64,000 nt of DNA, taken from NCBI RefSeq assembly GCF_000194625.1, contig NC_015320.1, positions 558,001-622,000 of the forward strand, read 5' to 3'. The position numbers were made by a program, and so were the translations under genes. Below the pieces are notes generated by a model. That model searched no databases, had not been told where the DNA came from, and worked only from the letters and a program-made list of their open reading frames with translations. The DNA is from Archaeoglobus veneficus SNP6. Its GTDB lineage: Archaea > Halobacteriota > Archaeoglobi > Archaeoglobales > Archaeoglobaceae. Below, piece after piece: positions 30,209 to 31,384 of this stretch; within the stretch, counting starts at the first letter, position 1; the number at the start of each line of letters is the position of its first letter.

Positions 30209-31384
30209 ATGAGCTACTTCGACGAAGTCGCGCCAGACGCAAAGAAGGTAGCAATATACGGAAAGGGAGGTATAGGGAAGTCAACCACATGCCAGAATAC
30301 TGCCGAAGCTCTCGCATATTACTACAAGAAGAAGGTCATGATTCACGGCTGTGATCCAAAGGCTGATGCAACGAGGATGATCCTCCACGGCAAGCCGCAG
30401 GATACGGTAATGGACGTGATGAGGGAGGAAGGAGAAGATGCAGTTACACTTGACAGGGTGAGAAATGTTGGATTTGTTTTTCAGGATTATGCCCTCTTTC
30501 CCCATAGAAGCGTTTTCGAAAACATTGCATTCGGACTGAAAATAAGAAAGCTGCCTGAGGAGGAGATAAGGAGCAGGGTGCATGAGGTAATGGAAACGCT
30601 GGAAATCGAGGACCTCAAGGATATGAGCGTTCTTCGGCTGAGCGGAGGGCAGAGACAGAGGGTTGCACTCGCCAGAGCTCTTGTCATAGACCCGGATGTT
30701 CTACTGCTTGACGAACCACTGAGCGCGCTGGATCCCGTTTTAAGGGAGAAGCTGAGAGAAGAGCTGAAGAACATCCTGAAGAAGGTTGGAATTGCTGGAA
30801 TTTACGTAACCCATGACATAGCTGAGGCAATGACGCTCGGGGACTGCATCGCCGTGATGAAGGATGGAGAGATACAGCAGATCGATACACCTGAGGAGGT
30901 ATTCTATCATCCCCGAACGGAGTTTGCTGCAAGGTTTGTTGGTGTGAGGAACATATTAGAGGGATTCGTTGCTGAAGTGAACGGCGATAAGGCGGTAATT
31001 GAGATAACGAATGCATCAAACCCGTTCAGAATACATACCCTGAAGTACCCCATATTCGAGCGCAGAAAAAACGTGCGCCTCTGCATTCATCCTGAAGACA
31101 TCGTGATTGCTGGAAACACAGAAATTGAAAATGTGGAAGACGGAGCCAACCTGATAAGAGGTAGGATAAAAGACATCATACCAAACGGACCCGTATTAAA
31201 GGTTGCAATCGACGTTGGAGGTCTGGAACTGTACGCAACCACAACAAGGCGCCAGTTGAAATGCGCAGTAAACGATGAAGTATGGATTTCGCTCAGCAGA
31301 GATGCATTTCACCCATTGTGCGGTAAGAAGCGCAGGTGTCCGGGTCATGAAATTCCTGAATCCTGTGTTAGAGCCAAATATTAA
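30209..31384 (+). CDS. NifH'-ModC' chimera: nitrogenase reductase N-terminus fused to a molybdate ABC ATPase lacking its Walker A
   Basis: Residues 1-~85 are archaeal NifH ([53 protein letters not shown]). From [15 protein letters not shown] onward it is ModC: Q-loop, signature [15 protein letters not shown], Walker [14 protein letters not shown]-loop YVTHDIAEA and a C-terminal TOBE-like domain with a Cys-containing end. The ModC part lacks its first ~60 residues, including Walker A. The NifH part lacks its [4Fe-4S] ligands. The join is in frame at RNVGF, where the families are naturally similar, pointing to recombination or to an assembly error. No other nif or mod gene is in the window. Confidence 0.85.

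Follow-up and report, generated by a model that had tools for sequence, protein, structure and literature searches.

Does a single reading frame of Archaeoglobus veneficus SNP6 really join the first part of nitrogenase reductase (NifH) to a molybdate-transport ATPase (ModC), and if so, is it a working hybrid, a scar of the loss of nitrogen fixation, or an assembly error? These three options had been left side by side by an earlier note on this DNA. We have analysed the locus within the window, i.e., the whole stretch of 64,000 nucleotides (GC 47.3%), which comes from a single contig of 1,901,943 bases with a completeness of 99.99%.

The fused reading frame and its junction

The assembly does contain the fusion. 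The open reading frame at 30209-31384 (+) starts with ATG and encodes 391 amino acids in a single frame, with no stop and no frameshift. Residues 12-89 match Fer4_NifH in Pfam (2.4e-23), and residues 83-368 match the WtpC/PotA-type ABC ATPases of NCBIfam (~1e-78), so the chimera described before, NifH followed by a ModC-type ABC ATPase, does exist. When residues 1-86 are used as the sole query, archaeal nitrogenase Fe proteins are retrieved from the PDB at 1.7e-45, and over residues 1-87 the identity to NifH of G044, a genome of another genus in the same family, is 93%. Chance is excluded by a wide margin as the source of either half's similarity. The parts and motifs are as follows.

30209-30463, +: NifH-derived part, residues 1-85 (93% identity to Archaeoglobaceae NifH; Pfam Fer4_NifH)
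30260-30286, +: NifH P-loop GKGGIGKST, residues 18-26
residues 49-53, +: NifH switch I, DPKAD
30461-30475, +: junction codons R-N-V-G-F, text common to nifH and modC (compared with nifH and modC of relatives)
30464-31384, +: ModC-type ABC ATPase part, to the stop (NCBIfam WtpC/PotA; 43/46 conserved columns; in the tree with ModC)
30482-30484, +: Q-loop, Q92
30638-30652, +: signature LSGGQ
30701-30718, +: Walker B LLLDEP
30812-30814, +: H-loop, H202
31079-31312, +: TOBE domain, residues 291-368 (Pfam TOBE_2, 4e-6)

Compared with NifH of the Archaeoglobaceae/methanogen type (TIGR01287), the fusion is alike in its first 85 residues, P-loop, switch I, promoter and Shine-Dalgarno, but the remaining ~200 residues of NifH are missing. 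The similarity stops by residue 89, and switch II is absent together with the Fe4S4-ligand cysteines (GVGCAGRG and DVVCGG, with positions taken from the NifH of relatives). Because it has lost switch II and both Fe-S cysteine regions, the product is, judged from its sequence, most likely no nitrogenase reductase. The other half is alike to the ModC/WtpC ATPases (NF040840, TIGR02142) from the strand before the Q-loop through the TOBE domain, whereas NifH residues 1-85 take the place of their A-loop, N-terminal strands and Walker A. That is, the profile match begins only after Walker A, covering WtpC profile positions 70-345 of 347, which agrees with the earlier claim that the ABC half has no Walker A of its own and that the product carries the NifH P-loop instead. 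The Q-loop, signature, Walker B and H-loop claimed for it are all found, and so is the D-loop (alignments A3 and A4). Overall, we infer that the product is probably not an efficient transporter ATPase.

As for the junction, the similarity to NifH runs as far as residue ~85-89, and there R-x-[V/I]-G-F occurs in both families, as had been noticed. The nifH genes of relatives read D-R-V-R-K-V-G-F-C-G-I here, and archaeal ModC reads R-N-I-G-F-[IV]-[YF]-Q. Residue N86 of the fusion (AAT) is ModC-like, NifH having K at this place, which puts the crossover within the five junction codons. The similar text common to nifH and modC is at most ~15 bp long.

Neither half shows decay. Over 75 codons, the N part differs from the nearest nifH at 26 third positions and at only 4 first and second positions, with A33E as its one unique residue, and the C part keeps 43 of the 46 conserved ABC columns, including every catalytic motif after Walker A. 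This observation suggests a recent event or selection on the gene. In a FastTree of 24 sequences, from which the WtpC of the same genome was left out, the ABC half clusters with archaeal modABC ATPases and apart from the PotA and MalK types (support 0.936). Its best match reaches at most ~54% identity, over only part of that half; the name ModC therefore holds for the type and not for a close orthologue. We have considered the nif-linked modC of G037 as the source of the ABC half and rejected it, since it is not the nearest relative in the tree. A 3' remnant of a second modC, suspected at 31436-31458 from RNILDG-like text, was also rejected, its score being not above that of shuffled sequence.

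In two AlphaFold runs with different alignments, the ABC/TOBE part is predicted with confidence, and residues 1-84 have pLDDT values mostly below 50, where the alignments are shallow (3 and 0 NifH rows, respectively). With the first model, Foldseek finds nucleotide-binding domains of the MalK/PotA type, and ModC of Methanosarcina acetivorans (3d31) ranks fourth.

Gene content, promoter and neighbourhood

The earlier note had proposed to look for an intact nifH elsewhere in the genome, and beyond the fusion there is none: the remaining matches in the contig are of weak, partial P-loop ATPase character, and the search for the NifD/K family (PF00148) has given no match, so nifDK is lacking too. 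The ABC half finds its next-best genome match in a paralogue with 50% identity at 1.56 Mb, where a WtpB permease and a ModE regulator are encoded alongside. No modA or modB is found among the window's open reading frames neighbouring the fusion; the ModB-type matches are located in other parts of the genome. Some of these, at 740-741 kb, are close to a match to ABC ATPases that is interrupted by two in-frame TAA stops (genome C1:739232-739780, -) and is likely a pseudogene.

Among 55 genomes of the family, 17 have NifH-family matches and none has a further NifH-ABC fusion. A scan of genome contigs with the whole fusion has returned ordinary ABC ATPases only, and the scan of viral contigs no useful match. 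Several Archaeoglobaceae carry a nifHI1I2DK cluster (L146, L148, L149, L150 and L152 in G042, G037, G041, G044 and G039, respectively).

The upstream region of the fusion is that of a nifH gene. Over 80-83 bp it shows 88% identity to the promoters that nifH has in G039 and G043, and the claim that a promoter and a Shine-Dalgarno are kept is borne out, both being homologous to nifH upstream regions. In addition, the motif TTTTGTGAAANWTT has four sites in the genome, every one upstream of a nitrogen-related gene (two amt genes, the fusion and a glutamine amidotransferase), while the reversed pattern used as control has none.

30097-30110, +: candidate nitrogen operator TTTTGTGAAACTTT, exact motif upstream of the fusion
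30163-30171, +: TATA-like box TTTATATTA of the former nifH promoter, inside the 80-83 bp conserved with G039/G043
30196-30204, +: Shine-Dalgarno AGGAGGTGA, with AGGAGGTGAATAGATG identical upstream of nifH in L152
22811-22824: motif copy upstream of amt of pair 1
31545-31558, -: motif copy upstream of the amidotransferase
genome C1:1779592 (L203): motif copy upstream of another amt, at ~1.78 Mb

Since the motif was derived from the window's own sites, the independent evidence consists of the amt at 1.78 Mb and the relatives. The motif also stands upstream of nifH in G037, G034, G039 and G043. Eleven relatives together have 18 sites, of which 8 precede nifH or amt, as the open reading frames were read by eye, and the control pattern gives 5 sites; the remaining motif sites are in apparently unrelated context, several of them in G042 alone. 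The motif looks like a nitrogen-regulon operator of Archaeoglobaceae. With the surviving nifH promoter, this candidate operator and the Shine-Dalgarno, transcription of the fusion probably takes place under nitrogen limitation, like that of the neighbouring amt genes.

We have further compared the neighbourhood with that of relatives. In G037 and G034, nifH-nifI1-nifI2-nifD-nifK, amt-glnB, an MBL-fold gene, a class I amidotransferase, modCBA and a homocitrate/isopropylmalate-synthase-like gene lie within ~20-25 kb. The window holds two amt-glnB pairs, a flavodiiron protein, the fusion, the amidotransferase and the MBL protein:

22908-24690, +: amt-glnB pair 1, its amt having the motif at 22811
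27141-28683, +: amt-glnB pair 2
28710-29888, -: flavodiiron protein, divergent from the fusion
31666-32340, +: class I glutamine amidotransferase (74% identity to G037; neighbour of nif/modABC in G037/G034)
32542-33267, +: MBL-fold hydrolase, which G037 likewise has in its nif-amt-mod neighbourhood

As these flanking genes are shared with the nif-mod stretch of relatives, the fusion stands at the expected place of the nif and mod genes. In the congener G002, the stop of glnB directly adjoins the start of the amidotransferase. Two congeners, G002 being one of them, have no flavodiiron match at E 1e-130, and this gene may have come or left together with the nif-mod block. In Methanothermococcus thermolithotrophicus, nif and mod genes are co-located and co-induced (PMC9765008).

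Origin of the fusion

We infer that the fusion is the scar of a deletion that took out a nitrogenase/molybdate-transport locus, to which we give a probability of roughly 65%. A crossover at the short text common to nifH and modC (codons R-x-V-G-F) would have deleted the remainder of nifH, ~75-80 codons from the start of modC and the genes between them, presumably nifI1I2DK and modAB, leaving an open frame across the join by chance. The ends of the former nif-mod locus would thus be joined with nitrogen control retained, and the product would be a foldable C-terminal half of ModC with its TOBE domain, carrying a NifH P-loop peptide. Of the three options this is the best supported, because there is neither nifDK nor a second nifH in a nearly complete single contig, the flanking genes are those of nif and modABC (amt-glnB, amidotransferase and MBL in one stretch with nifHI1I2DK and modCBA in G037/G034), and the nifH promoter is intact. 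It also agrees with the motif at nitrogen-related genes, the common junction text, the paralogous Wtp transporter with ModE that persists elsewhere, and the AlphaFold models, which resolve the ABC/TOBE part and not residues 1-84 (few or no NifH rows aligned). On the other hand, nifH and modC of G037 run in opposite directions, which requires a differing ancestral order or an inversion before the deletion, and the ABC half has closer kin than the nif-linked ModC of relatives. The absence of decay in the halves and the promoter also speaks against a scar, since a non-functional relic would decay in time.

That freshness would suit a working hybrid ATPase made under nitrogen limitation, in which the NifH P-loop substitutes for the ABC Walker A and which serves a molybdate/tungstate importer or senses Mo via the TOBE domain. 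Both halves are intact with all ABC motifs after Walker A, amino-acid changes are not in excess, and the promoter with the candidate operator is kept. We consider this unlikely all the same, as a piece of NifH, which belongs to another P-loop class, stands in place of the N-terminal ABC strands and Walker A, the window has no gene for a partner permease or binding protein adjoining the fusion, residues 1-84 have no confident fold in either model (few or no NifH rows aligned), and no second genome has the fusion. Occurrence in one genome only, with a promoter and coding sequence as fresh as in functional nifH genes, would also fit an assembly error or a deletion arisen only within the sequenced culture. 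This option has become weaker and seems quite improbable: the contig contains neither the rest of nifH nor nifDK, so several kb would have been lost; the common text is at most ~15 bp long, and no second close copy exists that could misguide an assembler; and the join is in frame, at homologous codons.

Archaeal NifH-NifD/E fusions (PMC11237513) likewise place NifH and another protein in one frame, but they pair nitrogenase-family partners, whereas in the present case both NifH and its partner, a transporter ATPase, are truncated. The locus offers a natural test of whether P-loop folds that belong to two NTPase classes can be combined by splicing. It is a long shot that nature has made such a hybrid, with the Walker A and switch I of nitrogenase reductase powering an ABC-type core, made on nitrogen starvation and regulating or energising Mo/W uptake in a lineage without nitrogen fixation. 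In 2015, nifHDK was reported absent from Archaeoglobales (PMC4600277), yet related Archaeoglobaceae genomes carry it. Overall, the fusion gives a record, at base resolution, of a probable loss of nitrogen fixation in an Archaeoglobus lineage, and its upstream region points out a candidate nitrogen operator for the Archaeoglobaceae.
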